From the NCBI GenBank assembly GCA_963402885.1, contig OY727094.1, positions 24,616,501 through 24,680,500 on the forward strand: a stretch of DNA of 64,000 nt, in the 5' to 3' direction. Of the stretch, positions 9,698 through 64,000 are shown piece by piece; position 1 is the stretch's first letter; every line of letters starts with the position of its first letter. This stretch comes from Antedon bifida. Lineage: Eukaryota; Echinodermata; Crinoidea; Comatulida; Antedonidae. A model generated the notes under the pieces. The model was not told the origin of the DNA and did no database searches. It saw nothing but the letters and a program-made list of their open reading frames with translations. A program made the translations under genes and the position numbers.

Positions 9698-9832
9698 AAC
9701 AAGGCCAACAGCCATAAGTCGCGTGCTAAAACGCACAGTGATACCGGACCGACAGACAGACCGACAGACCGACCAACCGACAGATCGACAGACCGACCGA
9801 CACAGTGAACTATAGAGTCGCGTCCACGCGAC
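9698..9832. mobile_element. Small insertion with (CCGA)-type repeats
   Basis: Present in copy A only; copy B reads straight across (ACACGTTT then TAAAAATG). It contains a GACAGACCGACC-type simple repeat at about 9742-9802 and ends with GTCGCGTCCACGCGAC, a short palindrome. AAGTCGCG near its left end is inverted relative to the CGCGACT at its right end. It is a probable non-autonomous insertion. Confidence 0.6.
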
Positions 9833-19510: not shown

Positions 19511-19692
19511 CGGTCGACGCTATCGTCAACAATAATCGGCGATCTTCTACGTAAACATTGAAATGTTAACGATTTACAGAAAAAGGTACTCGCTATCGTT
19601 ATCATTTCAACTTGATGGTTTTCAAACGATCGTCGTTGAACTGTTAACGATCAACGACGACGATAGCGTCGAATAACGTCGACAGGAAACAG
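19511..19692. mobile_element. Foldback element E1 (GTCGAC family)
   Basis: Starts near CCGGTCGACGCTATCGTC and ends CGACGATAGCGTCGAATAAC then GTCGACAGGAAACAGGCTTA. The two ends are imperfect inverted repeats rich in CGACGATAGCGTCGA dyads. The left half is the reverse complement of the right end of E2 (about 21205-21298). No coding capacity. Confidence 0.6.
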
Positions 19693-21303: not shown

Positions 21304-21310
21304 CAGGCTT

Positions 21311-23452: not shown

Positions 23453-23846
23453 CACGCAATCCATTTTTCAACAATATAGTAGTAATAATACAATTTAAAT
23501 TGAATAGCGAGGGATTAGTTACAGTGTTGAATTTGAATAAACCATTGGTAATTTACTGATTTACTAATTTACTGGGACTTCCCCGTGACGTTATCCTATT
23601 GTAGTCGCGTATGTTATAGGCTACAATCCTCTGTTTGCTAGCGCACTATAGGCCTAGAGTGAGTGACATTTCCGGCGAACTAGACGTGCAATTTATCATG
23701 AATTTTACGTGCGAGAGTACCATTTGCGGCCATCTAGGGGGTGTCATTTAACAATTTGCTTCGCCTGTGGCTCAAATACTCAGTGTCTACACAGCCCTAT
23801 AGACTCATTGGGCAACTCTCTTAAAATAGTCCTGCAACCGCCCCTG

Positions 23847-24761: not shown

Positions 24762-25021
24762 ATGGAGAAGTAAGCTTTTCCTTTTATATCCAACAAACTT
24801 TTATATTATAAATAGTTCAAGGAAAATTGTATTTATTATTGTTTAGAAACATGACAAATAAACATATTAACATCATCGACCGAGTATTTCTTGCCATGAT
24901 TCATTTTTATTCCCTTTTTTCCAGAGACCTATTGCTAAGAGCTGCAAGATATGGAGATTTGGAAGAAATTGAAGAAATATGTAAAAAATATCCACATCTT
25001 GTGAACTCCGTAGATACGACG
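24762..25021 (+). CDS. Gene 2 exons 1-2: start and N-terminal ANK cap
   Basis: Exon 1 contributes only ATG GAG AA (24762-24769) before GTAAGC. Exon 2 (24925-25021, 97 bp) completes the split Lys codon and encodes DLLLRAARYGDLEEIEEICK and then YPHLVNSVDTT. This is the half-repeat of two helices that caps ankyrin domains. It ends in phase 0, as all following ANK exons require. The -3 base of the start is T, a weak context. Confidence 0.8.
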
Positions 25022-25298
25022 GTATAAAAACTATATTTATTTGAATTTGAATATGATATAAATCATCACCATGTTTACGGTAAACTCAAGGGTGAAAAAA
25101 AAGAAAACTTTTGAATAATGTTTATATGACAACATTTACTAAGAACCAATATTAAACACACAATCTACTCTATACTATAACTGCGGCCACTTCTTTGAGT
25201 TGGGATAAAACGTAATAGAAAGACAGAATGCGTGTAATCATGCCACAATGGAGATAATTACCTCCGCCAAGGAGGTTATGTTTTCACCCCTGTATGTT

Positions 25299-25331
<33 letters not shown>

Positions 25332-28300: not shown

Positions 28301-31300
28301 AATTATGTTTTGAAGGCGGTTTGGTAAATACAGATCTACAAATTCAGTATTCATTAAAGTTTACTTGAATCTAAACGAAATGTCTAGGCTTAGGAATATG
28401 TTTATTAATTTAATAAATTATATTATTTAAAGTTATTAACCATCACCATATGAGTTACGATATTTAAACATCATGTACTGTCAGCTGTCGAATTTTAGAT
28501 TAAACAAGATGCTAAAATCAATACTTTTAAAATGATCATTGCTAAATAATCTGCATGTCTTAATTGAAATCAGTTAGTCATTATTTTCTTAATACCAGGT
28601 ATTTCTATATAATTTACATTCCCTCTTAATGAATTAGAAAATGAATGTAGAAAAGAAAAATATGAAATATAATAATACTAACTTTCTTCTTTCCAGTATG
28701 GAAACACACCGCTACATGAACACCTTGAGTCTGGCAGGAGTAATGTAAAGATAGTCAACAGTCTCATAGCCAACGGAGCCTCAGTCACAGCAACAAACAA
28801 TGTAAATTACTCTTATACAATTATTTAAAAATCCATAGCGTAATTATTTGAATTATCTCCCGTTATAAGCAAATCCTAGATTTGTTTAATGTGTTTTTCT
28901 TTGGAAAAGTGTATAGTTATTATCAAAGGAAAAATACAATTTAAAATATATTAAAAATTGTGTAGCTGTAGCGTTTTAGATTGAACAAGAGCCTAAATTA
29001 GTATTTTTAAAATGTGTTCATTGCTAACCCTTCTGTATTATAATAATTAAAATCATTTATTATCAAAGCAAAACTACAATTTAAAATATATTAAAAATCG
29101 TGCAGCTGACGATAGCATCGTCTCAACTAACTACACTAGCTAGTGATATTTCTAATATACGTAGGCTAACATGGTATTTTATGTAAATTATTCCCGATGA
29201 GCATATCTTCAACAACAATTACATAATCATTAACTCAGTTACACATACTGCCGGTACATGGCTCCTCGCAATATTTACACCAATCTTTTCATATTAAATT
29301 ATTGCATGTGTTTTGTTGTCTTATATCACTGTTAAGTTTACCTTTGATAGGCATATCTAAAAAATATGCCTTACTACTTGTTGGTTCCTCTAAGGGGAAT
29401 GAACATTCAATACATTTAATGTGATTTATAGTTCATTTTATCTGTCATAAAACCATTCTGAAGCAACTTTGTCAACATTAGTGTGGAATGAGCGAATATA
29501 TTTTAGTTCTGAAGCAACAACCTTATACGCGATTCGTCATCGATTTCGGCCAACCGCCTTTGATTGTTAAGAACTACCTGGTGAAGAAATGTAGAACTAC
29601 TCACCCATCCGGTATCTGAAATCAATTGCTTACTGTAGCACGCACGTCTCTACTGATTATATCACTCGGATTAAGAGATGTTTTCTATGTTTGCATCGTT
29701 GTTTTTTTTAGCTGGGGTAACTTTGGCTTTAGCTAATAGTAGAGAAATAGAAGGAATATTATCATGAGTCATCAATCTTAAATACGTGCATTGACCACAT
29801 ACTACTTCACTAGCATCTGAGATATAATGAATGTCTGCCTCGGTTTGACTTCTCCGAACCCTTATGGTTTGTAGCATCCACTAACTTGTAGTTTTCCAGC
29901 AGATGAACAATGTCATCATACCATTCGGATTATATTTTGATTTTAGAATAAAAATATCTTTTAGGAATAGAACATTCTGCACTAAGTGATGCAGTGAGAG
30001 GAGAATGTCGAGAATCCCTATCCAAACTCCAAGTAGGCCTATCATTAATTTAATTCGTTAGTGGCTGAGAGTAAGCCAAATAGATTATGAAAAATTCATA
30101 AACAATGTTATGATTTTCAACATAGAAAAGCGCAACAAAACGAGCGATTTGGGTCAATGGTGTAAAACTTATTATGTATAAATGGATTTAAAAACATGGC
30201 ATGCTCAACAGGTCAACAATATTTTTTATTTAAAAATTTAAACAAAGGCGAGGCTTATTGAACGACACAATTCTATGAGATAATAGGTTACACTCTCTAT
30301 AAGCTCCAATATTTCACACGCATTCAATATAAATTATGTTGGAATGGAAGAATACTTAATTAAAATTACAAACATATACACATTGTGACTAAACTAAGAC
30401 TAGGAATATTATAACTAGAAAAAGGAAGATGGAATCGTATTAGGCCTAATAGAAATGATAGATGCAAATTATGCTCTCTACAATCAATTGAAGATGAATT
30501 CCCTTTAGTTTATTCAGATAGTAGAACTAAGTATATGTTACGTTTTCCTCTTACACAAATAATCCATCTAAATTAAAATATAATGTCCTTATGTCTACTA
30601 CAAATACTGATCTCATTACTAAACTCAGAAAATATTTTTAAACGCACTCTATACATTGTATGTTTGCCGTCTGGTTTATTGAAACTACCCCCTCTATAAT
30701 TATTTAACGGCAAACTTGAGGGAAAGAGACGATTGTTGTTGTTGTTAAATCTCACAGTTGATAAATAGTAGTTTGTTATAATTGTTGTTTGATTCAATTT
30801 TTTACGCATTTATTGTGATTTTGAGATCCTCATCTCTCTTCCAAGAAGTTTTTTTTATGACACTGGCCAAATGTGGTGAAACAGATTTTGCTACTTGTTT
30901 ATTTGTTAGTTAAACGAGCATGTTTTGCGACGTTGGCAAGCATCCACAGCTAGGAAAGGTGAAATACAGTACAAAGAGGCAATGAAGTACTGTATATGAG
31001 AATGTTTGATAATAACTATGTAGGCCCTAAACCACAATACTTTAATTTGTGAAAAATGTAATAATGATGAAATACCAACAACCTCTGAGAAATGTAAAAC
31101 AAATTGTCCTGCTTGTCACATATTAAATAAATATAGTAAAGATATGATAAAATTGGTAAAATACAGACAGTACGACACTTTATTGATACATATTGGTAGC
31201 GTTGACAGAGATTTACTATTATTTAAATCATTAACGTTATTATTCGTAGTAGTTTAAAAAAATTGGTAAAATACAGACCGTTACGACACCTATAGGATAA

Positions 31301-34300
31301 AATACAAATGCAACAAATATAACAAAAAGGCAAATGTCATATAACTCGAAACATACACATAGCTTGCATTCAAAAGCCTCATATAGCAAATGGGAGAAAC
31401 GAATTACGTAATTTTTTTTTCCATTGTAGGATGAAGGTGGGATGGATAATAGATTAATAATATAACAAAATATTTATTGAATTCACCGTAGAGTGTATTG
31501 TTGGAATTTGCAATTATGTTTTGAAGGCGGTTTGGTAAATACAGATCTACAAATTCAGTATTCATTAAAGTTTACTTGAATCTAAACGAAATGTCTAGGC
31601 TTAGGAATATGTTTATTAATTTATTAATAAATTATATTATTTAAAGTTATTAACCATCACCATATGATTTACGATATTTAAACATCATGTACTGTCAGCT
31701 GTCGAATTTTAGATTAAACAAGACGCTAAAATCAATACTTTCAAAATGATGTGCATTGCTAAATCCTCTGCATGTCTTAATTGAAATCAGTTAGTCATTA
31801 TTTTCTTAATACCAGGTATTTCTATATAATTTACATTCACTCTTAATGAATTAGAAAATTAATGTAGAAAAGGATAAATATGAAATATAATAATACTAAC
31901 TTTCTTCTTTCCAGGTTGGAAACACACCGCTACATGAACACGTTAAGTTTGGCAGTGGTAATGTAGAGATAGTGAACAGTCTCATAGCTCATGGAGCATC
32001 AATCACGGCAACAAACAATGTAAATTACTCTTATACAATGATTTAAAAATTAATTAATGATTTTAAAAGTTAATTTACATTATCTCCCGTTATAAGCAAA
32101 CCATAGATTCGTTTATGTGTTTTCATTGGGAAACAATATATAGTTATTATCAAAGCAAAAATACAATTTAAAATATATTAAAAATCGTGCAGCTAACGAT
32201 AGCATGGTCTCAACTAACTACCGTACACAGCTAGTGAGATTTCTAATATACGTAGGCTAACATGGTATTTTATGCAAATTATTCCCGATGAGCATATCTT
32301 CAACAACAATTATATAATCATTAAGTCAGTTACACATACTGCCGTTACATTGCTCCTTGCAATATTTACACCAATCTTTTCATATTATATTATTGCATGT
32401 GTTTTGTTGTATTATATCACTGTTAAGTTTACCATTGATAGGCATATCTAAAAAATATGCCTTACTACTTGTTGGCTCCTTTAAGGGGAATGAACATTCA
32501 ATACATTTAATGTGATTTATAGTTCATTTTATCTGTCTGTTATAAAACCATTCTGAAACAACTTTGTAAACATTAGTGTGGAATGAGCGAATATATTTTA
32601 GTTCTGAAGCAACAACTTTACGCGATTCGTCATCGATTTCGGCCAACCGCCTTTGTTGTTAAGACCTACCAGGTGAAGAAATGTAGAACTACTCACTCAT
32701 CCGGTAACTGAAATCAATTGCTTACTGCAGCACGTACGGCTCTACTATATCACTCGGATTAGAAGATGTTTTCTATGTTTGCATCGTTGTTTTTTTTACC
32801 TGGGGTAACTTTGGCTTTAGCTAATAGTAGAGAAATAGAAGGAATATTATCATGAGTCATCAATCTTAAATACGTGCATTGACCACATACTACTTCACTA
32901 GCATCTGAGATATAATGAATTTCTGCCTCGGCTTGACTTCGCCGAACCCTTATGGTTTGTAGCATCCACTAACTTGTAGTTTTCCAGCAGATGAACAATG
33001 TCATCATACCACTTGGATTATATTTTGATTTTAGAATAAAAATATCTTTTAGGAATAGAACATTCTGCACCAAGTGATGCAGTGAGAGGAGAATGTCGAG
33101 AATCCCTATCCAAACTCCAAGTAGGCCTATCATTAATTTAATTCGTTAGTGGCTGAGAGTAAGCCAAATAGATTATGAAAAATTCATAAACAATGTTATG
33201 ATTTTCAACATAGAAAAGTGCAACAAAACGAGCGATTTGGGTCAATGGTGTAAAACTTATTATGTATAAATGGATTTAAAAACATGGCATGCTCAACAGG
33301 TCAACAATATTTTTTATTTCAAAATTTAAACAAAGGCGAGGCTTATTGAACGACACAATTCTATGAGATAATAGGTTACACTCTCTATAAGCTCCAATAT
33401 TTCACACGCAATCAATATAAATTATGTTGGAACGGAAGAATACTTAATTAAAATTATAAACATAGACACATTGTGACTAAACTAAGACTAGGAATATTAT
33501 AACTAGAAAAAGGAAGATGGAATCGTATTAGGCCTAATAGTAGCCTAATGATAAACTATGAAAATTATGCTCTCTACAATCAATTGAAGATAAATTCCCT
33601 TTAGTTTATTCAGATAGTAGAACTAAGTATGTTTTCCTCATACACAAATAATCCATCTAAATTAAAATATATTGTCCTTATGTCTACTACAAATACTGAT
33701 CTCATTACTAAGCTCAGAAAATATTTTTAAACGCACTCTATACATTGTATGTTTGCCGTTTGCGCCAAAGTTTCAGAGCCATATATAAAGAGTTACGACA
33801 TTGGATTATAGTCACGTGATATGCAGATCAATTTGTGTCAAACTTGTCTTCGTTAATGCATGTAAAGTATAGGAGCAAGAAAATACTTTAAACTTTTTCT
33901 TATATTTAAAAAAATGTAATTGCACATTTTACGGTGAAATATCGATGTGCACAGCGTACAGAAGTACTTGCGGCAAAGAATATTGCGCGCGCGTGCGCTA
34001 GTATACAAATAATGAATGTTTATGAGTGTAATGGTACAAATAATGGCATGAGGTGAATGATGAAAGGTTATATCAATGAGGCAACGCCGAGTTGATATAA
34101 CCTTTCATCATTCACCAAATGCCATTATTTGTACCATTACACGAATATAAAACATTCATTATCTGTTTTATATAACATCTAAATAGATTCCTGTCATTTG
34201 AATCAAATAAAAGGTAGCCCTAGCCAAGAGGTCTACATTTCATTCACATTGATTAAAACAGTAACATTTGGTTTTTAATATTATATTAAATGTTATATTT

Positions 34301-52300: not shown

Positions 52301-55300
52301 CCGTGTAGTAGTTTATGGTGATTCTGCTCACATTGTTTGCCATCAACTATTTCTGGACACTGTCTTTTTCTTGTGCAGTTTGCCATTCTATGGTTTCTTC
52401 CGGCTACCTTTAAACAGCTAAAACACACATAATTTTGTTTGGCTAACATTATCCGATCGTCTGGATTTTTTCCTTTAAATTCGTCGCATTGGTCTGGCCA
52501 ATGGTTATCTGACTTACAGATCCAACATTTCACATTATCTCGTTTTGATTCTGCACTAAACTGATTTATCCGTATCCACTTTGCCGACGTACTACCACTG
52601 GCAACTTGATCACCTTTGTTTGCACTCCCGAATACCGGATCATTTACTTCACTTGTAGCCGCTTTTATGAATGCTACAACATCTTTCAGTTTGGCACTAG
52701 CTCCATCCCCTTTTGACTTAATTTTGTAATTTTCTCGAGCCCACCTATTTTGTATGAACTTCGGAAGCCTTTCAATAATTAACTTTAAACTTCTCTGGTT
52801 ACTTAATTCTTCAACAAATCCCAAGGCACTTAGCGCTTCATAGCAATTCTCAAGATCATCGGAGAATACTCTAAGGTCATTAACATCTACCTTTGGCCTA
52901 TTTAGGATCTTGTCAACCCAGGCTTGAACAATTATACCGGTATTACCATATCTTTCCTTAGGGTTTTCAATGCCATACAATATCCCTCTGTTGTCTCTTT
53001 CATAACACAAAATCGAATGGCTTCTAATGCTTTGCCTTTACAGAAATGTAAAAGAGTATTTAACTTAACACCATCATCGGTTATTCCTGAAACTAGTTCT
53101 TTAATGGTCGTCATAAATGAATGGTACTGTAAGGGATTCCCATCAAAATAACGTGTCACTGATTTGGGAATAGACATAGCTTTGAATATTCCTTCGATTT
53201 GTCTATCATTTATAAATGTGTTACTTGCATTAGTTACTACATTTATGTTACCATTACGTGTATCCACATTACTCACATTATCAGTATTATCTACATCCGC
53301 ATCATTAGTTATCTTAATGTCTTCCTTAATTTCTATTTTACCTTTGATCTCCTTAATTCTACATTTAACTGCTAGCATCTCTGACATGAATTCTTCTTGA
53401 CATTGACCCATCCATTTCTCTTCTTCAGAAAACTCGTGCTCATCCTCTATCAGAGACACAAGTACGGCATGGGCTTCTTCGATTGCGGAAAATATCTCAT
53501 CTGCTTTCTTTAGCTTATCAGTGACTTCCTTTTCGTCATAATTTTCTTTGACTAATATATTTCTTATACCCTTCAAGGTCCTGGTCAGGTTACCTTTAGT
53601 ATTTCTTCTTCTTCGTTTACTTGCCTTCCTTTCCTCAGCCATCTTTCACTACTTCCTATCTTTGGTTCGACACAGTACCCACAAATAGTAAATTGAATTG
53701 TAGGAAATTTGCGCAAGACGACTGCACGGAGACTAAAATGAGCACATGTATCCGGGTTTGAGATGAAGTTGTTTTATTCCAACAGTCTCATTCAATTCTA
53801 AAATATAACATACATCAAACTGATCAAATAAACAGAACATAATCATGTCATTACTACATTTCGTTAACATGTCAAACTTGTCTATTCTTATTGAAACTTA
53901 CTACTTTGCCAGATACAGACACTCAGAATAGCCAATACAAGCTGGTTTGCAACAGTAATCACAATGACTTCTTTCATAGCCTAAACGAACAACATACAGT
54001 ACTATTTATTATGACTCCATAAGTTACTCAAAATGGTGAAATCACTCAAGCGTGACCAGTAAATTCAACAGTAATTCTCTACAACAGATTAACACATATA
54101 AAGTTAAAGCCCCCTTCCCTACGTTTTTTAGATCTAATTTAACATCACAAACTATATTTAATGTAAAAATAATACTATATGGTCCTATTGCGATAATTTT
54201 TTTCGTCTTTAAACGGTTAAAAATGTGAAAAATAAGTCGATTCTAATAATTATAGCGGCCCGCTATAAATCCCAAAATGCATTGCGCGCGGATTGATATT
54301 TTTGTTTTTCACCTGTAATTCGCCCACTTTTCGATCGATCGTGAGGCAAAAACAAATGGAAGACTCCTAACTTTTCAGTGAAAATACCGGGTTTTCCCCA
54401 ACTTGTATCAACGGAGTCTGGCAAAAATAAAAAGACAATTAATGCAGCAACTATACAACGTCAGGCTAGGTATATAGCTAGCGTACGATGTTCGTACGTT
54501 ACCGATGTTTACCAGCTAGGCCTACAAAACTAAGCCTAGCTAGGCTAGGCCTAAGACCGTCCACGAGAGGTCGATCGCCGCGAGCTACTTAGGTAGTGCA
54601 TTGTTTCTCACTTTTTATCATAATTTACCATAAAACGTACATTTAAGACAAGGAATGACATGGTTTAATGTTTTTAAAGTGATATATATGTATTATTTTC
54701 CAAAAAACGTCCAAAATTGCAGGGAAGGGGTCTTTAAGCAACAATTCTTGCAATCTTAATGAAAATACATTCTGATGATTTTATGGAAAATACTGTAGTC
54801 TGTATCATGATAACACAATCTTAACTCAGTTTTAACTATGTATAATAACTCATCTGGTTTGTCCTATTCAAACTCTCGTAAACTACAACTACAAGATGGC
54901 GGCGTCCATCATTACCACGTTGTTGAGACTAACCAAGCAATTATATTTAACACAATTACTAATAATTACAATAAACATCATTGAATAATTTCAGATTCAT
55001 ACATTGAGTGAATTAAACGAACTTACGTCTTTAAACAATATAACCAAACATTTATTTCTACTTGCTTTTAACTAATGTTTCTTAGTAATTAACTGCAACA
55101 CACTCACAGTAGCATTTTCGACGCTCATCTGCCTCAAATCCGTTGGCGGCGCCAATTAAGATTAAACTAAATCTTACAATCACAATAAACATTAAATGGT
55201 AGAGCAGTTAGTATTGTTGTTTGTTAGTGCAAAGGTGCTCAGATTGTGTCATATTAACGTGTTCACACTATTAGCTTATGCATGTGTTTATTACAATCCG

Positions 55301-58300
55301 GATTATGTAAATTACCAGTTTACTCGCTTCGCTCGCATCTAGGTCGTCCACAGATGCTTCTCGAATACATAGTAATTTCAGCGTTAAAAAACTGGCGATT
55401 TCAAATGTACGTACCACAGGACAATAAATGTCATTTACAATAACGAATAAATAAAAACGGTGATTTATGTACTCAACTAAAATTGGCACCCTGTGAATTA
55501 CTTCCGAAAGAGAAACTTGTCACAAAATGAGACCAATTGTTTGAGTCAAATTTAAACAAACTTCATTTGTGTTTTGTATGTAACATTAGGGTTGAGGGAT
55601 GGAAAAGAGGATGGGTGCAAAGAGGAACAATTTTTTAAATATATTCTTTATCCATTTAGTAACAAAATATTAATTGTTTTCATGTTTTACAAATAATATA
55701 CCACTAAATACATTAAAACATTGCGATTTAATACTTTGTTGAAACCGTCACCGTTATTTTCGATTGAAGTACAGTACAGTACATGTAACGATACATCACT
55801 ACAACGTTTATATTTTTTTTGTAATTACATTATTAATTAATACAAACGTTAAGAAGCAACTGTCAGTAATAAAGTTTATTTGTATATGTGTTTATATAAT
55901 GTAAAACAATTTGTGAAAAACACCTCTATTCGGGGCAAATCGTAAATTCGCTTTAATCGTCAATAAATAATTATCTAACTCAATTTAATTAGTAAACAGA
56001 GTTACATAAGGTGGTTAATCAGTACCGAAAGTACGAATCAACTTTATATACCATCGAGTAAAAATTCTTGAAGAAGGGGCGATTTACCGATTTTTTCCCT
56101 TACGTAAATTTATATATAGATTAGTAAAGTAACAGTGGATAATACTTTAATACATTTTTTGTATAGCGAGGACAAACACCAGCATCTGTTTTGAAGGATA
56201 ATGATGAGATCTCCAAAGAGAAGAAAAATAAGATATTGAAGTTACTTGACAGTAAGTTTGTATTAATACACTTTTCTTGAGTTTTGCTCATGAATATTAA
56301 ACTGTGTATTACTAATGACACACATTGAACATTGTACTGAACCTTTGAACTGTATGAATGTGACGAAGATGAACTGTCATAATGACATTTTAAAACTATG
56401 GCTTTGAATTGATTCTTAAGTGTAAAATATTTGTATTTGTTTTTGTATATTTTACATTTATTTTAATTGCAATTTAGTTCCAGTTGAAATATTAGCTAGA
56501 GGTGAGAGCGCCATTAGATCATTTCAAAATGAACTTGAAAATGGTGAGATTGCAGTTGTAAATTCAAGATGTATGTTTCTCGGGAAAGAAGGTGCTGGAA
56601 AAACTAGTTGTGTAAAGGCCATGCTTGGACAAAGGTAACAAAAGAACAAAGTTATTTTATAAGGGAGATGCACCAATAAAATATACATGATCTTCATCAA
56701 TATACAGCATTTATAATTATACAAGTTGAATGGTGTTTTTACCATTACAATAGATTAAGTGCTCATTTATTTCAAATCGTGTATTCATGTTCTCTATAAT
56801 AGTCATGGCATAACATTCCTTATCAGAAAATATATTAAAATCAATCTTTTGTTCTTTGAACCATTTAACAAACAACTTTACCTTTAATGCAATGACAACA
56901 TTTAAAGAGTTGTTTGGTTTACCTTTTTATAGTAAGTTTGGTGCTGAGTACTTTAATATATAAAATACAGAAATTGGCATTAGTGAGGTTCTTATTATAA
57001 ATAGTTGATACCTGAAGTTTCGTGTTTGAGTAACGGGTTTTCATTCCTTTTCGAATAATAATAAATATTCGAAAAAGAATGAAAACCCGTATCAACTATT
57101 TATAATAATGATTATGATGATGATGATTATAAGGACGATGATGATGATGATAATGAATGATGACGGTGACATATTGACGGTGATGGTGACGACGCTGTTT
57201 ATGCAAATGCTGCTGCTGAAGGGTTCAGTTTGTTTTAAATATCTCATTTGCTTATTTACTTGTGTTTTTATTTTAAATATATTAATATTTTAAGATGAAC
57301 TATTGGATACATTCTACTTTCTTTAAATCTGACCTTTTGGAGTTCATTATTCATTATTATAGATTTAAATCCAACGAACCATCTACTGATGGTATTGTTA
57401 TTACAACGACATTGTTTCAAGCAATTGGAAAAGACTGTGACAAGTGGAAGAAGGAAGATATCGACGGTAAGTTTGAAAAGAAGAATTCAACCATACCAAA
57501 TGACACATTAACTGTTCGTTCAAAGTTGGCTGTCCCCACAAAAGAGAGAAACTCTCTCTTTCTTCTTCCTTCAACAAACGCATAATTGCCTGCTTTGGCC
57601 AATTTGTGTATAGAGATTAATTAGTATCATAATAAAGGTAAAAACGTACCGGTAAGGTACATTGGAAATAATATTTTTATTAAATACTTAAATGCATTTT
57701 GGTCTATAATTACATAAATGACCTACATATATTTATTTTATTTACAGGTGATTATGATGATTTGATGATATATCTCATTTCTCTAATATTAGTATTTTAA
57801 TTTATCTCTATGATGTGTACCGTACAATCTTATTTCACCTTGTTTTTTTTTTTTTACAGTTATGGAGCTCAACAAGAAAATATTGGAAGATGCACTTGCA
57901 GAAAAACTTGCAACACAGTTAATAAAGGACGAAATGCATGATGGTGAAGGAAGTTCAGATATGTCAACATCTAAATCTGATTCCCAACTGGAATCATCAG
58001 CAATCTCTTCTTTGGATCCAGTAAAAACAGGTGTGATGAATATCTACTATAATTTCTATTACAAGGGTATTTTTATTATTCTAAACAAACTGTATTTGTG
58101 ATCATAATCAAGTTAAGATGCACTCATACAGTATAGAAACATACATAAAAGTGAAATGTTAGACATTCTATATATTGTATCAAAAATATATTATAATGAA
58201 TTGCAGGAACATCCCAGAAAACGCCTGAACACATCACAGCAAAGATGGAAAAACAAACGTAAACTGAAACCAAATTACATTTACAAGGTGCAGTTTCAAC

Positions 58301-61300
58301 ACCTTCAATATCTGATTTCGAATGTTCTATATCTTCTGACTCTGTGTCTTCAGTGGAAGGTTTGATTATTTTTTTAAATATTTTTAAAGTGTTCAAATAA
58401 ACATCAATAATATAATACGTACTGACTGGTTGTTTCGCATTTTAATCACTTTACTATAACAAGTCATCACGCGAATTAATAGCAACAAATTAATTTAATG
58501 AGAAAAAAAGAAATTAATATTTTAGATTATTGTTTAATCCAATTTAATAAACCAATTTAATGTAAATAATAAATTAATGTAGTGTATTATACATGCTGAT
58601 GCTGAAATAAACACGAAATTATTATTTTTATTGTTATGAGTGCAACACGACACAAATAATCATTTTTGTTTTACATTTTCGCCGACAGAAAACTCGAGAT
58701 TAAAGCAAACCCAGCGAATATTTGAAGAGGCTGTAGTGGAAGAAAGTACATCACAGATGAAAGAAAGAACATCTTTCAACGAACTTCCTTTAGGCGAGGC
58801 TTCTACATCTGATTCCAGAGAGTCTGATTACACGTCATTGGCAGTGGAATCGGCAAGAAAGGGTTGGACTCATTATTTGGTTTTCTTAATTTTTGATAAA
58901 ATAATATGTATGGCATTATACCATTATTATAAAACATTCTGGAAAATGTTGTCCTCAAAAAGTTAGTCCATCCAGGGAAGAGTGACATTTTCTTTTCTTG
59001 TTGCAAACAAATAAATGTATTAAAATGCAAATATTGCATTGGTATTAAAACTGGGCAATCAATAATATTCACTGCTCGTTCAATTCTTTAATAATCCTGA
59101 AAGATGTATTTATTTATTGTATACGCTTACTTTATCCATTTTAACATTCATTATGTCTACTCACAACCAATCAGACCAGTCCATCTATCCATATCTAATT
59201 TACACACACCCCATTGATTTGTAGTCATTATTTGAATTTAGAGAGTCAACTAAAAGAAAATCCGACAATTCCCGACTCCATTCAAAGAAAAGTTGTTGCT
59301 AAAATAAAAAAGCGAAGACGGAAAGATAGTTGGGCGATGAAAATGATTAGGAAATTTGTAAAAAGAAAAAGTGATGATTCAGAAAGTATTCCAAGTGACG
59401 TAACTACTATATGGGACTACGCAGGTCAACTGGACTACTACATAACGCATAGGGTATGTTCATATTTTGTTATTTGCTATTACTTAAAAATGTCTTAAAA
59501 ATTAAAAAATAAATTTATTGGCGCATGTTTAAAAAAAGGGCATTGATTTGCTTGTTTACGTATCTATTCTATTATACAGACCTTTAAATTATATTTTAAA
59601 TTTTATTTGATTTATGTATTTTTTCTTTTGTTCATAGTTTTTGTTTCATATGTTAAATGATTATTAAAAAAATAAAGAGATTTGCTCATAGTGACAGTAC
59701 GACATTGTGTTGTGGTATAACATTTTCACTATATATATTTGTATTATATTAAGTATTATTGCATGTATCAAATAACACATCCCTAATAAATGACTTGGAG
59801 TATAAAAAAAGTTATTATTATCAATTGTATTTTGTTTAGTTTTTCCTCACAAATAGAGTATCGTACTGTGTAACGTTTAATGCGTGTGATAACTTGGATG
59901 AACCAGCTAATCCGCGAGATTCAATTACAGTAAGTGCCTACAGTACCTATACTTATTTGCTCGAATACACTTTATTAAATATGCATATCTTTGTTATTGA
60001 GAATATGTTAGCTTACTTTGTAAGATTGAATTTTATTTGTGATTTTAGAGTACACTAGGAATGACCAATTTGGAAATGAATACGTTCTGGATAAGGTCCA
60101 TTTATGAACATACTGTGGCACAACATGGTCCAGGAAGTCCCATTAATATTGATGGCAAGATCATCGAGTCACCTCCTATCTGTTTGGTTGCTACACATAT
60201 GGACACATTTCGTAAAAAGTCAAAATCAAAAAATTGGATCAAGGTAACAGCGGTACATTAACATTAGATAAGCTTACAATTTTGCAACGGTATGTGGTAT
60301 ACACGGACAGGATTAAGGCTGAATTAGTTAAAACCGATAGAGTGATGAAATATAAATAGCGTAGCCTACGGTCCTCGAATTAAATTGTGTATTAAGTTTA
60401 ATTATCGGTTAGACTTATTCAAATCAGAATATGAAATAACAGTTTGTAAGAATCATTACATTCTTGTTGTTATAGCTTGTAATTATGAAAACACTTTTTA
60501 TTAAAGGAAGTGGAGGATAAGTTTCGTAAAATGTTTGAAAAAATGGAAGGAATGCCATATGCCGATCATGTAGATCGTGAGATGTACATGGTTGATAACA
60601 CTGTAAAATCGCATGAAGGTATAAAACAACTAAGGAGAAACGTTGGTCGTTACATGAAGGCCATGGTGAGAAGTGTTCCATTAAAATGGGTGGATTTGCA
60701 AGAACAGTTGCAAGAAATTGGAAAAACAACACTGTGTATTACTTTTACTGAGGTAAGATTTGGTTTTAAATGTATAACTGTGAATTGTATGTTGTCACAA
60801 CTGTAAACACAGATTTATAAAACACATATAGAGTATGAACACTTGTACTTATTATCTTATTAAAAATAGAGTACTATACGGTAACAATTATAATGTATAA
60901 GGTCATAATTTGAAGGTCACATTTCTGTCTACAATGTAATGTTGCCAATTTTTTTGTTGAGCCAGTGATGTGAATTAATAATACAATAGTAAATATAGAT
61001 GTCTTGTCATTTTTTAGTATTTGGTAGTCTTCATCATTATTGTACTATTTTTCTTGTTTTAGTTGTTCCCGCAAAACATGAGCAACTAAAATTAATAATG
61101 AAATCAAACATTGAATTGTTTATTTCGTAATGTTAATAAAAAGCTATAGTTATCATCCTAAAAAAACTGAACAAAGATAATGTAAAATAAATATAAAAAA
61201 TTCAACGAAACAGTTACATTTAACAAGAAATAGGTCTTCCCGACAATGCGCTTTCTGAAATGTCTAGTCAAGGTGCAGAATGTTAGATAAAAATATGTTT

Positions 61301-64000
61301 TATTCAACAATAAGCTGTTTACAATTATTTTAAAGAAAAATAACAATATTTATTCACCAAATTCAATACATTCTATTTTGTTATTAATTTGCATTAGACA
61401 TCTAAAATCGGCACTGAATGTGGAATTTCAAAAGATGGGCTATCCACTGCCATAACGTACCTGAATGACATTGGGGTTATCATGTATTCAAGTACTAACA
61501 AGAAATTAAGAAACACAGTGATAACAAATCTTTACATGATGATTGAAATGGTGACAAAAGTGATCACAGTAGTTCAACCAACTATTGAAGTGGTAAGTAG
61601 ATAAGGTTAGCAGCAAAATAATTGTCACAAAACAATGTGGATATAAAACTTTTTAGTTGTTTGATGAATTTTTTTGAAGTTGTATAGTGTATGTATTAGT
61701 TATTGTTCATTAGTTTTTTCTCTCTATTATTTGGTAACAGAAAGAACTAAGAATGCTATGGAATAAGCTTAACAAGGAAGGAATACTTGAGGAAAAATTG
61801 CTACGGCATTTATGGAAACATGAATTACAGGAAGATTCAAAGCGTTTTGAAATCTTTACTGAAGTGATGAAAACATTTGGTTTGCTCTATGAGAAATTAG
61901 AAGTAGGTTAAGCATCTTGGCTTTTGATTAAATATGAGAATATTATAGTAGGCCTATTCCAAATCGATGTTACTTTGTCATAACACTATAATTCAACTTT
62001 TTTTTACATCAGCAAGGAAGCGAAGATAATCGGATGTTCCTTGTTCCATCTCGAATGCAAAACACGAAAGAGAGCCTGAAAGTTGAAAAAGACGAGAAAC
62101 ATACGGTGTCGATGTATCTTACACCTACTGATTTTCTGCCTAATGCTGTGTACAATACATTAGTTGTTGCGTTTCTGTATTTAATGGAGAGCAAAGGTAG
62201 ACTACGCGATCCAGTTGTATTTCAAAATCGTAGTGATTTTGACTTTGGAGATCATGAGGTTCGTTTAGGTGCCGTGAAAATCGAGCATCAAAATGAAAAC
62301 AGGCATGCGTTGAAGGTATGAATATTCATTTAACTCATAATTTACCATCAGTTTGAATATTTAATATGTCTGTTAAGTTAGCTAGCATAGCATTAGCAAA
62401 ATATTAAACGAATGCAAAATTATCATTTATTTCGGATTATGTTCTGCAGTTTAGTCTCTTTTAAGAATGTTCATCCAGTTATAGAAACAGTGAGAACCAA
62501 ATATGTGACTACACAGAATGAGATTTAAGAGCTGGGATTACAAAAATGAGAACATGTTTATATTCCAATAATAAGTATTCATTATTTTAGTTTCTTCCTT
62601 GCGATTTTTTTAAAAGTCAAATGATATTCACCCGATAAATGTAATGCAAAAGTAGACGTAAGCAATCTGAGTGAGATGTAGAATGTATGTTAAATATTGT
62701 AATAAATAAATAAATCTTCTTTAACAGCTCGAAATATCCCATCGAATTGAAGTTGACGAAAATAACATAGAAGTAAATGAACCAAACCCGAGCTTGTGCA
62801 TTGAGGTAAAGATTCTAAGATTTTAAATAGCTTACCTGAATGCAATTATGTGAAATGTTTAATTCAAATTTATTATTATTTGTTGTAGATATTAAACTAT
62901 TTAAAGCTTCAACTTAAGACTGTGCTGAAAACTAATGAAGGAATTGGTTATAACCTGCGTGTGTTGTGTATCGCCTGTCATCCAGAGCACATTCATTTAC
63001 ACGATCTGGAAGAGTGTTTGAAAGAAGGTAGCAAAATTGTTCCATGTGGCAAGAGGTCCATGAAAACAGATCGCTTAAAGTGCTTTTTTTTAGAAGGTTA
63101 GTTTACACATCCATGTATGTATTTCGTATTTAAATATAATAAATAATAAAAATAGAAATAAAACAATCATTCAAACTATTATTATTCTAAATATATAAAT
63201 TGTATACATAGAATATCTTATAATGATAATGTGTTTGCAAAACATTTGAAGTTATTAAATAAAACATTATTGTTGTAATTATCATTTCATTTCCAGGCAG
63301 AAGTAATGTAAAGCCAGAACCAATTCACACAGGTAAATTTTACACCAACGCACCATGCACGATAGGAAAGTGAATTTAATACGTTTTGTCTATGGTATTC
63401 AACAGTTATTTACTGTAAACAAAATGATAAGTGTAACCATTTGCAATATTGATCTTAATATTCTTGTTATTTGTTTCTTTCTACAGGATCGTCCGAGGAG
63501 TTTGAACAAATGGTGGTAAACGTATCGACCTGGTATGATGAACATGGCTCCCTTGATAAACTGAAGGTGTTATGCAAAGATCTGATAACACCTTACAATG
63601 ATCTACAGAATGCTGACTGCATAGCTTTCTTCAACCTATTGAAACGATCTGGCAATGTTACCACTACCAACATTAAAGTTCTTGTTGACGCAATTAATGT
63701 CACTGGTACCAATGGTGTTCTGGAGGTCAACAAACTGTTAAAGGAGACATTTGATAAAACCAACCAGTGTATCACATCCTTCTCAACATATCGACAACAA
63801 CTAATTCAGTTCGGTGACGCACTTTCGGAAAAAAATACAAGAGATCTCATCCGTTTGAAAAGTGTTCTAAAAAAACAATGTGACAACCAATGGACTGTGA
63901 TATTAGATCTTGAACAAAGGGGGATTCTAAGGGAGGATAACTTGCAATTATTTATTGCATTTTTAAAGGAGAATAACATGACTGTTCCTGCTGAAAAGTT
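24762..64000 (+). CDS. Gene 2: ankyrin-Roc-COR-DED protein (complete 5' end, last few codons beyond the window)
   Basis: Exons join in phase: 24762-24769, 24925-25021, thirteen ANK exons between 28697 and 49223, 56167-56251, 56478-56634, 57363-57466, 57860-58030, 58207-58359, 58689-58862, 59242-59453, 59840-59929, 60049-60243, 60507-60752, 61398-61592, 61741-61902, 62013-62315, 62728-62805, 62889-63096, 63297-63332, 63487-64000. Total is about 1,500 residues. The start was chosen because ATG GAG AA is followed by GTAAGC, its phase matches exon 2, and an in-frame TAA directly precedes it. Order: ANK cap, 13 ANK repeats, ANK cap, Roc (GKEGAGKTS, WDYAGQ, ATHMD), COR, DED-like pair. The layout recalls DAPK/ROCO proteins without the kinase; a sensor or scaffold role is inferred. 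One in-frame TAA sits in exon 58207-58359, so this copy is either a pseudogene or skips that exon. Confidence 0.8.
25259..25864. repeat. Dispersed repeat (CCTCCGCCAAGGAGG family) in intron 2
   Basis: It begins TACCTCCGCCAAGGAGGTTA and ends CTCTCGGAGTAACCTCTAG. Inside are a GT-rich microsatellite (about 25288-25344), two diverged copies of a motif with CCACAGTTTT and CTCACCAAA, an A-rich stretch and a tRNA-like segment. Another terminus of the same family is at 7909-7955. Open frames inside it are not supported as genes. Confidence 0.6.
25652..25720 (-). pseudogene. tRNA-like sequence (possible SINE head)
   Basis: Read on the minus strand it has an A-box-like GTGGTGTAATGGTTATG, an anticodon-loop-like CTCTCAC and a B-box GGTTCAAGTCC, with spacing like a Glu-type tRNA. 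T-stem and acceptor pairing are poor, so it is not a working tRNA. It may be a tRNA-derived SINE head or a decayed tRNA gene. Confidence 0.45.
26476..26682 (-). pseudogene. BEL/Pao RNase H fragment (unit 1)
   Basis: The minus strand encodes IHYISDASEVVCGQCTYLR and, after a spacer, LLLAKAKVTP. This matches the RNase H segment of BEL/Pao pol, where SDASE-x-x-YG is followed by aK-x-RvaP. It is an isolated fragment without neighbouring pol sequence in frame. It differs from the complete BEL element at 50102, so it comes from another family. Confidence 0.7.
27190..27440 (+). pseudogene. LINE ORF2 C-terminal fragment (unit 1)
   Basis: The plus strand reads TKLRLGIL, a stop, then LEKGRWNRI, RCKLCSLQSIEDEF and further sequence ending at KLRKYF. 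The pattern GRW-n-R, C-x2-C and EDE(H)F is characteristic of the C-terminus of several non-LTR retrotransposons. Broken by at least one stop. Confidence 0.6.
28697..28801 (+). CDS. ANK exon 1
   Basis: 105 bp, phase 0 to 0, 35 residues: YGNTPLH then EHLESGRSN, ending VTATNN. Acceptor TTTCCAG, donor GTAAAT. Variable positions 8, 11, 12 and 14 are E, E, S, R. It is the only repeat starting with Tyr and with Leu at position 10. Confidence 0.85.
29105..31914. repeat. Intron block, unit 2 of 3
   Basis: A near-identical copy of unit 1, including the RNase H fragment (29671-29877, minus) and the LINE fragment (about 30385-30640, plus). Differences are mostly single bases and small indels, so the duplication is recent. 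It ends at the ANK exon at 31915. Confidence 0.9.
29671..29877 (-). pseudogene. BEL/Pao RNase H fragment (unit 2)
   Basis: Same 68-codon open segment as in unit 1, with two residue changes near the C-terminal end (VTPAKK and ENIS here). Confidence 0.7.
31915..32019 (+). CDS. ANK exon 2
   Basis: 105 bp, phase 0 to 0: VGNTPLH then EHVKFGSGN, ending ITATNN. Variable positions 8, 11, 12, 14 are E, K, F, S. Splice sites as in the other ANK exons. Confidence 0.85.
32195..33760. repeat. Intron block, unit 3 of 3 (left part)
   Basis: Collinear with unit 1 up to GTTTGCCGT, where palindromic MITEs interrupt it. Its continuation can be followed at about 36113-36140, 39069-39324, 40009-40300 and 40302-40503, separated by insertions. 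The third block thus grew to about 10 kb before its ANK exon at 42019. Confidence 0.85.
32759..32965 (-). pseudogene. BEL/Pao RNase H fragment (unit 3)
   Basis: The third copy of the 68-codon segment. It remains open, with three substitutions (QAEAEIHY in place of QTEADIHY). An LINE C-terminal fragment follows at about 33475-33735 on the plus strand. Confidence 0.7.
33775..35471. mobile_element. Palindromic MITE X1
   Basis: The left end AGAGCCATATATAAAGAGTT and right end AACTCTTTATATATAATTAT then GGCTCT are inverted repeats. Direct repeats CAAAGTTTC flank it at 33766-33774 and about 35473-35481, consistent with a 9-bp target duplication as made by Mutator-like elements. Inside are a near-perfect hairpin (34010-34157, stem about 65 bp around GAGGCAACGCC) and a second inverted pair (TTCCTGTCATTTGA at about 34190 and its complement at about 34885). 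No transposase. Confidence 0.7.
35482..36075. mobile_element. Full-length palindromic MITE X2
   Basis: Shares its termini (AGAGCCATATA) with X1 and lies directly next to it. Almost the whole element is one inverted repeat: TGTTTGTGTCCAACTATTCC and AAGTTACTGCGAACATGATT in the left arm recur in reverse complement in the right arm, around a GC-rich centre with CATGCACGCTCTACGCG. An A-rich run (36076-36116) follows it. Confidence 0.75.
37084..37822 (-). pseudogene. P-element-like transposase, THAP end joined to C-terminal region
   Basis: From an acceptor at 37823-37824 the minus strand continues a THAP domain (CAKWAQNTRRADLRRKPSSY). It then frameshifts, the other frame carrying a CNIHFEES-like end of the THAP motif. 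It goes on with TGRLNQDCLENLFSIVRGRG and a PMADEFRASLKEVM segment, typical of THAP9/P-element C-termini, an acidic Ser run, then LVYVAGYVVKK and a Cys cluster CDICKQC. The RNase-H-like catalytic region between THAP and C-terminus is missing. Stop at 37084. Confidence 0.75.
38777..38862 (-). pseudogene. THAP-domain first exon
   Basis: Minus-strand ATG at 38862-38860 gives MYCAAINCKSN, a TGA stop, then KANPELKFYNFSKDKI and a good donor (GTAAAT). C-x4-C followed by F-x2-FSKD is the start of a THAP zinc finger, the DNA-binding end of P-element-like transposases. The internal stop shows decay. It splices in phase to 37822. Confidence 0.7.
39069..42018. other. Scrambled remainder of intron unit 3
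   Basis: Pieces matching unit 1 (39069-39324, 40009-40300, 40302-40503, 41076-41160, 41385-41600) are separated by unrelated DNA (39325-40008 and 40504-41075). A half-copy of the GTCGAC foldback family is at about 40900-40985. At about 41570-41720 the sequences that normally flank an ANK exon meet without the exon. No gene recognised. Confidence 0.6.
42019..42123 (+). CDS. ANK exon 3 (class A)
   Basis: 105 bp: NGNTPLH then RHVWFGRGN, ending ITATDN. Variable positions 8, 11, 12, 14: R, W, F, R. Position 28 carries Glu (AHEAS) instead of the usual Gly. First member of an A-B-B higher-order repeat. Confidence 0.85.
42402..42506 (+). CDS. ANK exon 4 (class B)
   Basis: 105 bp: DGNTPLH then THVNSGRGE, NRLLSHGAS, ending VTATNK. 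Variable positions: T, N, S, R. Confidence 0.85.
42792..42896 (+). CDS. ANK exon 5 (class B)
   Basis: Identical to ANK exon 4 at protein level except Tyr for Ser at position 12 (THVNYGRGE). The only codon difference (TCT to TAT) falls on a surface position. Confidence 0.85.
43325..43429 (+). CDS. ANK exon 6 (class A)
   Basis: 105 bp: NGNTLLH then THVWHGSGN, ending ITATDN, with Leu in place of the usual Pro of TPLH. Variable positions: T, W, H, S. Glu at position 28 as in exon 3. Confidence 0.85.
43708..43812 (+). CDS. ANK exon 7 (class B)
   Basis: 105 bp: DGNTPLH then KHVISGRGE, ending VTATNK. Variable positions: K, I, S, R. Confidence 0.85.
44092..44196 (+). CDS. ANK exon 8 (class B)
   Basis: Identical in protein sequence to ANK exon 7, with a near-identical intron before it. 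This points to a very recent copy (384 bp apart) or gene conversion. Confidence 0.85.
44476..44580 (+). CDS. ANK exon 9 (class A)
   Basis: 105 bp: NGNTPLH then THVWLGSGN, ending ITATDN. Variable positions: T, W, L, S. It has the normal Gly at position 28. Confidence 0.85.
45028..45132 (+). CDS. ANK exon 10
   Basis: 105 bp: NGNTTLH then RHVAFGRGN, ending ITATNN. Variable positions: R, A, F, R. Thr replaces Pro in the TPLH signature. It has a duplicate at 49119. Confidence 0.85.
45722..45790. repeat. SINE/LINE-tail-like repeat
   Basis: AATAATAATAACTGGTACTT followed by ATAGCGCATTA-loop-TTAATGCGCT, a short hairpin, then TTACATA. This kind of GGTACTT...AGCGC...GCGCTTTACA tail is widespread in marine invertebrate genomes. 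A second copy at about 49811-49870 came with the segmental duplication. Confidence 0.5.
45858..46010 (-). mobile_element. Short BEL/Pao LTR (solo)
   Basis: On the minus strand it starts TGCTCTACTATATG and ends TTTCCTACA (TG...CA), 153 bp, with a poly(A) signal AATAAA at 45937-45932. It equals the two ends of the long LTR at 53699-55206, with about 1.36 kb missing between them. Flanks (ATCAC and GTTAA) do not form a target duplication. Confidence 0.75.
46021..47550. other. Intron DNA between ANK exons 10 and 11
   Basis: About 46021-47330 is not related to the ANK introns. It includes a stretch with GGCGGCCATCTTGATTTC and two loosely repeated segments around AAAATGACCGGAAAT and AAAATGACTGGAAAT. 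From about 47330 the usual ANK intron resumes (TTAATACTTTTAAAATGTG). No gene recognised. Confidence 0.5.
47551..47655 (+). CDS. ANK exon 11
   Basis: 105 bp: DGNTPLH then NHVGYGRGN, NSLLAHGAS, ending ITTTNN. Variable positions: N, G, Y, R. Confidence 0.85.
47656..48614. other. Intron with an exon-less ANK relic and an unrelated insertion
   Basis: At about 47880-48060 the post-exon intron motif recurs (AACCACTAGATTCGTTTAAT) with no exon before it. At about 48140-48490 there is DNA of different, more GC-rich composition (for example CACCCGCCAGCAGACAGACA), probably an inserted element without visible ends. Confidence 0.5.
48615..48689 (+). CDS. ANK exon 12, shortened by 30 bp
   Basis: 75 bp, phase 0 to 0: NGSTPLH then EHVTLADGNV, joined directly to ASITATNN. 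Compared with the other exons, exactly ten codons are missing (the EIVNSL-containing second helix and its turn). The frame is kept but an ANK repeat without helix 2 should not fold normally. Splice sites are intact. Confidence 0.8.
49119..49223 (+). CDS. ANK exon 13
   Basis: 105 bp: NGNTTLH then RHVAFGRGN, LEIVNSLIAHGAL, ending ITATNN. It differs from exon 10 by Leu for Val and Glu for Lys in helix 2. Last full repeat before the C-terminal cap exon, 6.9 kb away beyond the BEL element. Confidence 0.85.
49949..50101 (-). mobile_element. Short BEL/Pao LTR adjoining pol (3' LTR position)
   Basis: Same 153-bp sequence as 45858-46010. Downstream in element orientation lies host intron DNA; upstream, after GTTAAGGCCA, lies truncated pol. 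It sits where the 3' LTR of the minus-strand element should be, but it came with the segmental duplication, so its link to this element may be secondary. Confidence 0.7.
50103..52268 (-). pseudogene. BEL/Pao pol: protease, reverse transcriptase, RNase H (truncated)
   Basis: About 721 codons are open. An aspartic protease motif LLDSGSQTTIIR lies near residue 28. Pao-type RT follows, with VRIVFNSSNVYNG, the GPDLLNSLQGVMLRFR region, KMYHRV and the catalytic YMDD (VYMDDICTS) near residue 440. RNase H has FCDASEKAYGSCAYAR and RVAPIKRLTIPRLELQA. Typical BEL pol is about twice as long and includes integrase, missing here. The upstream start is in another frame, so no intact polyprotein exists. Confidence 0.9.
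52135..53642 (-). pseudogene. BEL/Pao gag, split by a frameshift
   Basis: The first part (53642-52932) starts MAEERKASKRRRR and has a charged coiled region, then SVTRYFDGNPLQYHSFM and a DUF1759-like segment. It shifts frame near 52960 to the second part (to 52135), with GNTGIIVQAWVDKIL, LPKFIQNRWARE and two Cys-rich motifs: CWICKSDNHWPDQC (zinc knuckle) and CFSCLKVAGRNHRMANC. This order is standard for Pao/BEL gag. A second shift precedes the protease. Confidence 0.85.
53699..55206 (-). mobile_element. Long BEL/Pao LTR (5' LTR position)
   Basis: Its outer ~145 bp at the 53699 side and its last bases GTAGAGCA at the 55206 side equal the short LTRs. Between them lie 1.36 kb found nowhere else in the window (53841-55195), including AGGCCTAG clusters at about 54520-54555 and ACAAGATGGCGGCGTCCATC at about 54893. 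Either this is the full LTR and the short ones are deleted, or it carries an insertion. TG...CA termini in minus orientation. No clear primer-binding site is visible next to it. Confidence 0.65.
55207..56166. other. Intron DNA before the ANK cap exon
   Basis: AT-rich with no gene or recognisable element. It ends in the acceptor TTTTTTGTATAG at 56155-56166. Confidence 0.5.
56167..56251 (+). CDS. Gene 2 ANK C-terminal cap exon
   Basis: 85 bp, enters in phase 0 directly after the ANK exons and leaves in phase 1. It encodes RGQTPASVLKDNDEISKEKK and NKILKLLD. This is the usual closing half-repeat (G-x-TP, then a charged helix ending in LLL-like residues). Its phase is the main proof that the distant ANK exons belong to the same gene as the GTPase. 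Confidence 0.85.
56478..56634 (+). CDS. Gene 2 P-loop exon of the Roc GTPase
   Basis: 157 bp. It encodes a short linker (VEILARGESAIRSFQNELEN), then the first strand and the Walker A motif: CMFLGKEGAGKTSCVKAMLG. G-x4-GK-T/S is present in full, so nucleotide binding is expected. It ends in phase 2 and joins exon 57363. The gene 1 counterpart lies just outside the left edge of the window. Confidence 0.9.
57363..60243 (+). CDS. Gene 2 Roc GTPase segment with long insertion; nonsense codon in one exon
   Basis: Exons 57363-57466 (STDGIVI, switch I), 57860-58030, 58207-58359, 58689-58862, 59242-59453 (WDYAGQLDYYITHR, G3), 59840-59929 and 60049-60243 (ATHMD, G4). They are nearly identical to gene 1. 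Exon 58207-58359 reads TAA at 58260-58262 where gene 1 has TCA. The exon is 153 bp with phase 1 on both sides, so skipping it restores the frame and removes 51 residues from the low-complexity insert only. Confidence 0.85.
60507..63096 (+). CDS. Gene 2 COR domain and Cys-containing tail
   Basis: Exons 60507-60752 and 61398-61592 are almost identical to gene 1. Exons 61741-61902, 62013-62315, 62728-62805 and 62889-63096 are clearly more diverged (for example KELRMLWNKLNKEG against KQLRNLWKKLNKEG, and a three-base shorter exon at 62728). Reading frames are intact throughout, with many conservative changes, so this copy has stayed under constraint at least until recently. CVLCIAC of gene 1 is RVLCIAC here, so a Cys is lost. 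Confidence 0.8.
63487..64000 (+). CDS. Gene 2 DED-like exon (cut by window end)
   Basis: Matches gene 1 7033-7546 with about 95% identity; some 16 bases to the stop are outside the window. Preceded by the 36-bp linker exon 63297-63332. Both DED-like helical units are present (LDKLKVLCKDLI and FGDALSEKNTRDLIRLK). Divergence is lower here than in the COR exons just upstream. Confidence 0.7.

Follow-up and report, generated by a model that had tools for sequence, protein, structure and literature searches.

Here we describe a cluster of genes in the crinoid Antedon bifida that join an array of ankyrin repeats to a Roc GTPase, a COR domain and a C-terminal exon of the death-effector domain (DED) family. 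The window, by which we mean the whole 64,000-nucleotide stretch analysed, spans positions 24,616,501-24,680,500 of contig OY727094.1 (C7:24,616,501-24,680,500) in assembly GCA_963402885.1, and genome searches covered this 315.6-Mb assembly with its 27 contigs; of 21 contigs considered by length, 11 are chromosome-sized and account for almost the entire sequence. The COX1 gene of the assembly (L082) reads best when AAA encodes asparagine, AGR serine, ATA isoleucine and TGA tryptophan, a code that echinoderms share with flatworms and that speaks against a bryozoan origin. Two gene copies lie on the plus strand of the window, as do all of their exons given below: the 3' half of copy 1 (696-7565, from the switch I exon through the stop codon) and nearly all of copy 2, which begins at 24762 and overruns the window end by about 22 bases.

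Gene structure at the locus

Assembled from the sequence, copy 2 consists of 32 exons, with AG at every acceptor and GT at every donor, and 1,487 codons are open without a stop. Their order is an 8-nt start, a first ankyrin-like exon, 13 ankyrin cassettes, a last ankyrin/linker exon, eight Roc exons, four COR exons, three linker exons and one DED-family exon. In the gene model, exon 1 (24762-24769, ATGGAGAA) holds the start codon: its ATG at 24762, spliced to exon 2 (24925-25021), reads MEKDLLLRAARYGDLEEIEEICKKYPHLVNSVDTT, an ankyrin-like start that forms part of the array scanned with Pfam. The surrounding 24701-25030 shows 82-89% identity with stretches in two other loci (L009 and L065). Two cassettes (28697-28801 and 31915-32019) lie within a 3.1-kb direct repeat; eight more, with starts at 42019, 42402, 42792, 43325, 43708, 44092, 44476 and 45028, extend to 45132, most of them in tandem DNA units of ~383 bp; and a last three occupy 47551-47655, 48615-48689 (shortened to 75 nt) and 49119-49223. 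The last ankyrin/linker exon (RGQTPASVL...KLLD) is at 56167-56251.

The GTPase part then opens with the Roc G1 exon (56478-56634), whose P-loop GKEGAGKTS stands at 56582. It continues through the switch I exon (57363-57466), three Ser-rich insert exons between switch I and G3 (57860-58030, 58288-58359 and 58689-58862), the G3 exon (59242-59453, WDYAGQ at 59412), a further exon between G3 and G4 (59840-59929) and the G4 exon (60049-60243, ATHMD at 60190). The COR exons follow at 60507-60752, 61398-61592, 61741-61902 and 62013-62315; the first three make up the Pfam COR-A match and the fourth is assigned by position. Linker exons at 62728-62805, 62889-63096 and 63297-63332 lead to the DED-family exon, which starts at 63487, passes the window end at 64000 and reaches its stop in L011. 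A match to the linker exon at 62889 was found beside 22 of the 30 DED exons whose loci were fetched. The stretch 58207-58258 also looks like an exon, with a GT donor and a near-identical equivalent in copy 1; it would shift the frame and is skipped in the copy 2 model. In both copies the stretch may be an alternative exon whose use would shorten the protein.

Profile searches agree with this order. The ankyrin array matches Pfam Ank_2 at 2.3e-117, Roc matches at 9.7e-9 (35.9 bits against a cut-off of 27), and COR-A follows directly after Roc at 5e-17 (62.6 bits against a cut-off of 35.3, residues 478-634 of the scanned protein). With a Roc domain carrying P-loop, G3 and G4 motifs and a COR domain right behind it, copy 2 has the sequence features of the ROCO class. 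The model opens with ankyrin rather than with the N-terminal Ser/Thr kinase of the DAPK family; a scan of the plus strand of 7566-24762 for kinase motifs gave no match, and Pfam scans of the copy 2 model gave none to NACHT. The original prediction, made from the letters alone, had proposed phase-consistent exons joining an ankyrin array to Roc, COR and a DED-like end, quoted the three GTPase motifs, and saw a bare ankyrin start in place of a kinase. The motifs are in phase throughout, and the kinase-less order is supported.

Copy 1 is closely related. Its WDYAGQ and ATHMD motifs lie at 2743 and 3502. Upstream, L009/L010 hold its six ankyrin cassettes and its P-loop exon, the latter in L010 just outside the window. 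Comparison of 1-7565 with 56656-64000 gave a mosaic. With gaps left out, identity is 96.5-100% in exons c to l; introns are 93-100% identical up to intron 10 and 90% at the next. Near the COR exons identity drops, so that exons and introns from m to q are 75-90% identical, and the DED exons are again 96% identical. High, then low, then high identity is the pattern expected from gene conversion. In exons m-n, the proportion of replacement differences per replacement site (pN) is 0.098 and that of silent differences per silent site (pS) is 0.281, which points to purifying selection on the compared Roc-COR part.

One ankyrin repeat per exon

Each ankyrin cassette is an exon of its own that encodes one repeat in 105 nt and is phase 0 on both sides. 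To collect cassettes we used a script restricted to phase 0 that required G at residue 2, T at 4, L at 6 and H at 7, with AG before and GT after the exon; the invariance of these features is thus by construction. It found 36 exons, 33 of them 105 nt long, and the other three (108, 75 and a truncated 60 nt) were excluded for length. In the complete gene model, all 13 copy 2 cassettes are in phase. At least eight further cassettes (seven, plus one at L074) fall outside the script pattern and were not used.

A genome search with the cassette (446 candidates, 150 scored) listed 46 matches at E <=1e-5, of which 43 lie in C7:24.34-24.67 Mb, all on the plus strand, two on C16 and one on C10. The 43 listed C7 cassettes are spread over seven gene intervals as 3, 3, 7, 7, 5, 6 and 12, the short thirteenth cassette of copy 2 not being among them. 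Two neighbouring cassettes share 105 of 105 exon bases and 200 of 200 downstream bases. Because the phase is 0 at both ends, adding or skipping a cassette preserves the frame, and splicing or unequal crossing-over could therefore make new specificities.

Signs of selection at five ankyrin positions

Across the 33 full-length cassettes, the framework is near-fixed and residues 1, 8, 11, 12 and 14 are hypervariable, using 7, 7, 12, 7 and 8 distinct residues respectively. In fact, there are 30 distinct five-residue combinations among the 33 cassettes. At the five variable codons pN is 0.507 and pS 0.092, against 0.067 and 0.127 in the rest of the repeat, and the ratio of pN at the five sites to pS of the whole exon has a bootstrap range of 3.4-4.9. 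The sites had first been picked by entropy, and in answer we ran a cross-validation across gene halves. Genes 1-5 and genes 6-7, each used to pick the sites and then tested in the other set, gave the same five sites, with pN of 0.463 and 0.536 against pS of 0.083 and 0.110. Among 528 cassette pairs, 16 have no silent difference, and these carry on average 3.7 replacements at the variable positions as well as 1.4 elsewhere in the repeat. The introns adjoining the cassettes differ by 0.13 where aligned; without alignment, the figure for columns outside the splice sites is 0.41-0.43, which we attribute to indels.

We then counted parsimony changes for 31 of the 33 cassettes (two lack flanks), using intron and framework sequence to build the tree. 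First and second positions of the variable codons change 9.5 times per base, those of the framework 0.75 times (~0.87 without the four codons fixed by the script), framework third positions 1.27 times and ungapped intron columns ~1.2 times. Thus, positions 1-2 of the variable codons change at about eight times the intron rate. Codons 1, 8 and 12 have 1, 1 and 0 third-base changes, codons 11 and 14 have 8 and 3. For codons 1, 8 and 12 together, this makes 2 third-base against 52 first- or second-base changes (binomial 1.2e-7), and most third-base changes there would be silent; for all five codons the counts are 13 and 95 (3.3e-7). A local mutation hotspot would also hit silent bases, which are spared at codons 1, 8 and 12; selection for diversity, acting on residues 1, 8, 11, 12 and 14, therefore fits these counts better. 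A looser test at six sites chosen from the DARPin (designed ankyrin repeat protein) design, under one of two possible alignments, gave a weaker result in the same direction (pN 0.31, pS 0.155).

Where do these residues sit? The cassette repeat aligns to natural and designed ankyrins in the PDB, with 318 distinct chains at <=1e-10 (60 shown). A DARPin repeat has 33 residues; the cassette repeat has 35, with the extra pair near the end of the first helix, at 11-12 in some HMMER alignments and at 13-14 in others. Either 11-12 or 13-14 corresponds to the DARPin pair before the glycine ending the first helix, and residue 1 to the DARPin residue before the turn glycine; these positions are randomised in DARPin libraries. 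Under both alignments, residues 11, 12 and 14 sit where the first helix runs out and the next loop begins. In DARPins, the randomised surface positions form the paratope, according to the available text of one report (PMC8683736). By analogy, the variable face of the cassette stack would bind ligand.

The C-terminal exon

We compared 27 members of the DED-exon family, two from the window and 25 from the 30 loci that were fetched; all match Pfam DED at E <=0.01, the best at 1.3e-11. DED is the best Pfam match of this exon and Death domain is not among the listed matches; five of the 27 also match, weakly, the unrelated Pfam family AAT. On sequence matches, the first unit of the exon alone is well supported as a putative DED, and both window copies score under the Pfam cut-off. 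An AlphaFold model made from the two window copies only had a mean predicted local distance difference test score (pLDDT) of 40.3. Possible partners exist in the genome, where caspases gave 28 exon-level matches among 36 candidates.

A row of seven genes and a larger family

From its two tandem copies, the original prediction had suggested a family and asked for a count of paralogues. The family is real, and the count of two was too low: seven P-loop/DED exon pairs stand in a row on the plus strand of C7:24.37-24.68 Mb, each P-loop exon 7.0-13.0 kb before its DED exon, and every interval contains ankyrin cassettes. Genome-wide searches, which count exons rather than genes and give lower bounds, returned at least 147 Roc P-loop exon matches (150 scored of 213 candidates) and at least 150 DED exons (150 scored of 648 candidates, all 150 matching, some with internal stops).

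The two exons often occur together. On the same strand, 53 of the 147 P-loop exons have a listed DED exon after them at a distance of up to 15 kb; the reverse order occurs 12 times, and opposite-strand pairs number 0. Widening the distance to 25 kb gives 59, 28 and 0. Pairing at 15 kb involves 49 of the 74 P-loop exons with at least 61% identity and 4 of the remaining 73; since the scored DED exons number 150, some P-loop exons counted as unpaired may nonetheless have a partner. A gene on C15 (L081), inspected by eye, combines an ankyrin repeat with GKEGAGKTS, WDYAGQ and ATHKD motifs, COR-like exons and a DED exon. In 18.8 kb of a C15 relative, one ankyrin exon was found. A remote C7 member (L085), also read by eye, retains GLENVGKT, WDFGGQ and GTHYE. 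In a relative on C16, nine ankyrin exons were matched, of which the first six lie in a ~1.07-kb tandem.

Upstream of a distant C7 member of the DED-exon family lies an open reading frame (ORF) with a ZU5 domain (1.1e-14; L080:3683-4336, minus strand). Given this neighbour, more than one type of receptor may use the DED exon.

Comparison with known systems

Two animal protein classes share parts of this architecture. DAPK1 runs kinase-ANK-Roc-COR-death domain, and the present genes resemble it in their ANK-Roc-COR order and putative death-fold C-terminus; they differ in that no kinase was found, a DED-family exon replaces the death domain, the cassettes form a near-identical array and the genes form a multigene family. 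NOD-like receptors combine a repeat sensor (leucine-rich repeats, LRRs), a NACHT switch and a death-fold output. Here too we find a repeat array suited to sensing, a nucleotide switch and a putative death-fold output; the switch is a Roc-COR GTPase, the ankyrin sensor is N-terminal and the output C-terminal.

The closest known analogue of the cluster is found outside animals, in the LRR-ROCO genes of brown algae. As described in the text of that report available to us (PMC11378527), these number 9-47, encode one LRR per 72-bp exon, undergo alternative splicing and show positive selection at four sites of the concave face. Both systems thus share a ROCO core, one fixed-length, constant-phase repeat per exon, exon duplication and diversifying selection at a few repeat positions, and the algal genes were likewise proposed as immune receptors (PMC11378527). 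They differ in the repeat, LRR in phase-2 exons in the alga and ankyrin in 105-nt phase-0 exons in our animal. The available algal text describes no death-fold tail, whereas copy 2 ends in a DED-family exon; and the algal genes are mostly dispersed, whereas here seven pairs stand in a row, beside at least 147 P-loop-like exons in the genome (PMC11378527).

Other ROCO expansions are more distant. According to the available text, placozoans have at least 17 ROCO genes with CARD, death, TPR, LRR and AAA domains, an animal expansion with death-fold partners like ours; ankyrin cassettes and DED are not named in that text (PMC4104024). ROCO domains occur in some TLR and MyD88-like proteins of Aplysia (PMC9334734, in the part available), and prokaryotic homologues join a GTPase-COR unit to rapidly evolving LRRs (PMC8195603, likewise). 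In their constant framework with few variable surface positions per repeat, the cassettes resemble DARPins (PMC8683736, available text), which are synthetic, unlike the present family. Our literature search, a limited one that covered few subscription journals and sources in part, found no animal ROCO family in which ankyrin repeats are encoded by exon cassettes or carry variable positions.

A recognition-receptor interpretation and its rivals

To explain these results we propose, with a probability of about 60%, that the cluster encodes intracellular ROCO-class receptors that serve recognition and are diversified in the germline. For this we count the 32-exon model, the domains, the variable sites, purifying selection in exons m-n, the expansion of the family and the presence of caspases. 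The variable residues of each repeat would form a binding face with which the ankyrin stack binds ligand; binding would shift the GTP state or dimerisation of Roc-COR; and the DED tail could then nucleate a complex with DED adaptors or caspases, with cell death or inflammation against microbes or other non-self as the output. A sensor function is still something that we infer, but it gains from the one-repeat-per-exon organisation and from diversifying selection at five positions.

Several points count against the recognition-receptor proposal or narrow it. First, the DED matches of the window's own exons (9.3e-4 in copy 2, 4.1e-5 in copy 1) are both under the Pfam cut-off, the one domain in the profile check to fall short, and a profile search of the PDB with this exon gave seven matches at E 0.53-4.1, none of them a DED chain. 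Second, of the tandem DED units in the original prediction, the first stands and the second is weak: second halves match DED weakly (E 0.006-0.013) in three of six members tried, that of the window's own exon has no Pfam DED match, and comparing half against half as profiles gave a probability of 0.2%. Third, cassettes linked by duplication and probably by conversion are not independent samples, and the intron rate on the tree, taken from ungapped columns, is possibly understated, the framework third-base rate agreeing with it. Fourth, the two placements of the extra residue pair by HMMER leave the match between variable sites and DARPin randomised sites unsettled. Finally, the pattern is not in every member: judged by eye and on small numbers, residues 8, 11, 12 and 14 look near-constant in the C16 relative. 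Its tandem ankyrin exons thus indicate that cassette duplication alone does not yield the variability.

We tentatively go one step further, to a claim that we would not quite back at even odds: that the cluster is a naturally evolved equivalent of designed ankyrin libraries, with tandem one-repeat exons, five selected positions, a GTPase switch and a DED tail. Such an anticipatory intracellular repertoire would be convergent with the exon-shuffled ROCO genes of brown algae, cassette choice being possibly varied by splicing or unequal exchange. If our interpretation is true, brown algae and echinoderms both made repeat-exon receptor repertoires from one GTPase core, one with LRRs and the other with ankyrin; ankyrin repeats join the scaffolds known as germline-variable receptors; and the five residues that contact ligand are predicted.

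Who the ligand belongs to is another matter. Diversifying selection also suits recognition of self, mates or symbionts, and its confinement to a handful of residues is compatible with any part in an arms race or in self-recognition. The variable ankyrin face could therefore bind polymorphic self ligands, in allorecognition or gamete self-recognition rather than in immunity. We consider this unlikely: a DED-type tail suits cytosolic signalling, and Pfam, the one means by which we looked (signal peptides and membrane segments were not searched), found no extracellular or membrane family in the copy 2 model.

Somewhat less probable again is that the protein acts as a scaffold in signalling, or as a stress sensor of the DAPK kind, and that its ankyrin array drifts while gene conversion homogenises the framework. 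Homogenised neighbouring cassettes and the mosaic of copies 1 and 2 are what it would lead us to expect, but drift should not yield an eightfold excess over introns with almost no third-base change at codons 1, 8 and 12. We think it improbable, too, that these are decaying gene relics or tandem copies made by assembly, as might be read from transposon ORFs inside two introns, one shortened cassette and two copy 2 cassettes with identical exons; against this, 32 exons are open in phase with canonical splice sites, framework and COR are under purifying selection, and most cassettes differ in sequence. Least credible is that editing or a mutator aimed at the five codons made the variation instead of selection: it would explain why variation is limited to them and why codons 11 and 14 have third-base changes, but a blind mutator would strike third bases at codons 1, 8 and 12 as well.

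Other elements in and around the window

Mobile elements are present in the window. A Pao-type retrotransposon occupies 50103-53645 on the minus strand, inside the copy 2 intron between the last cassette and the linker exon, with Peptidase_A17 (4.8e-52), reverse transcriptase and a weak DUF1759 match. A P-element-like transposase fragment (37084-37707, minus strand) lies in another copy 2 intron, and between copies 1 and 2 there is a reverse transcriptase ORF (21413-23295, plus strand; RVT_1 4.4e-17), LINE-like by eye. A 21-bp tandem repeat of 14.4 copies (10736-11038) is open in several frames on both strands, with no gene evidence.

Elsewhere in the genome, C7 11.6-18 Mb and C10 11.4-16.1 Mb contain dozens of P-loop exons that score almost alike and are scattered over megabases, every one of them on the minus strand. 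Long open frames that match Roc stand in tandem on C15, at 13.46-13.55 Mb and at 17.2-17.33 Mb; many measure 950-1030 aa, and they are perhaps a second, intron-free GTPase expansion. Downstream of the cluster, at L012:4119-8922 on the minus strand, stand three tandem single-frame ORFs of 493-495 aa. The one that was scanned has immunoglobulin domains and, by eye, a hydrophobic stretch; these ORFs are possibly another receptor family.
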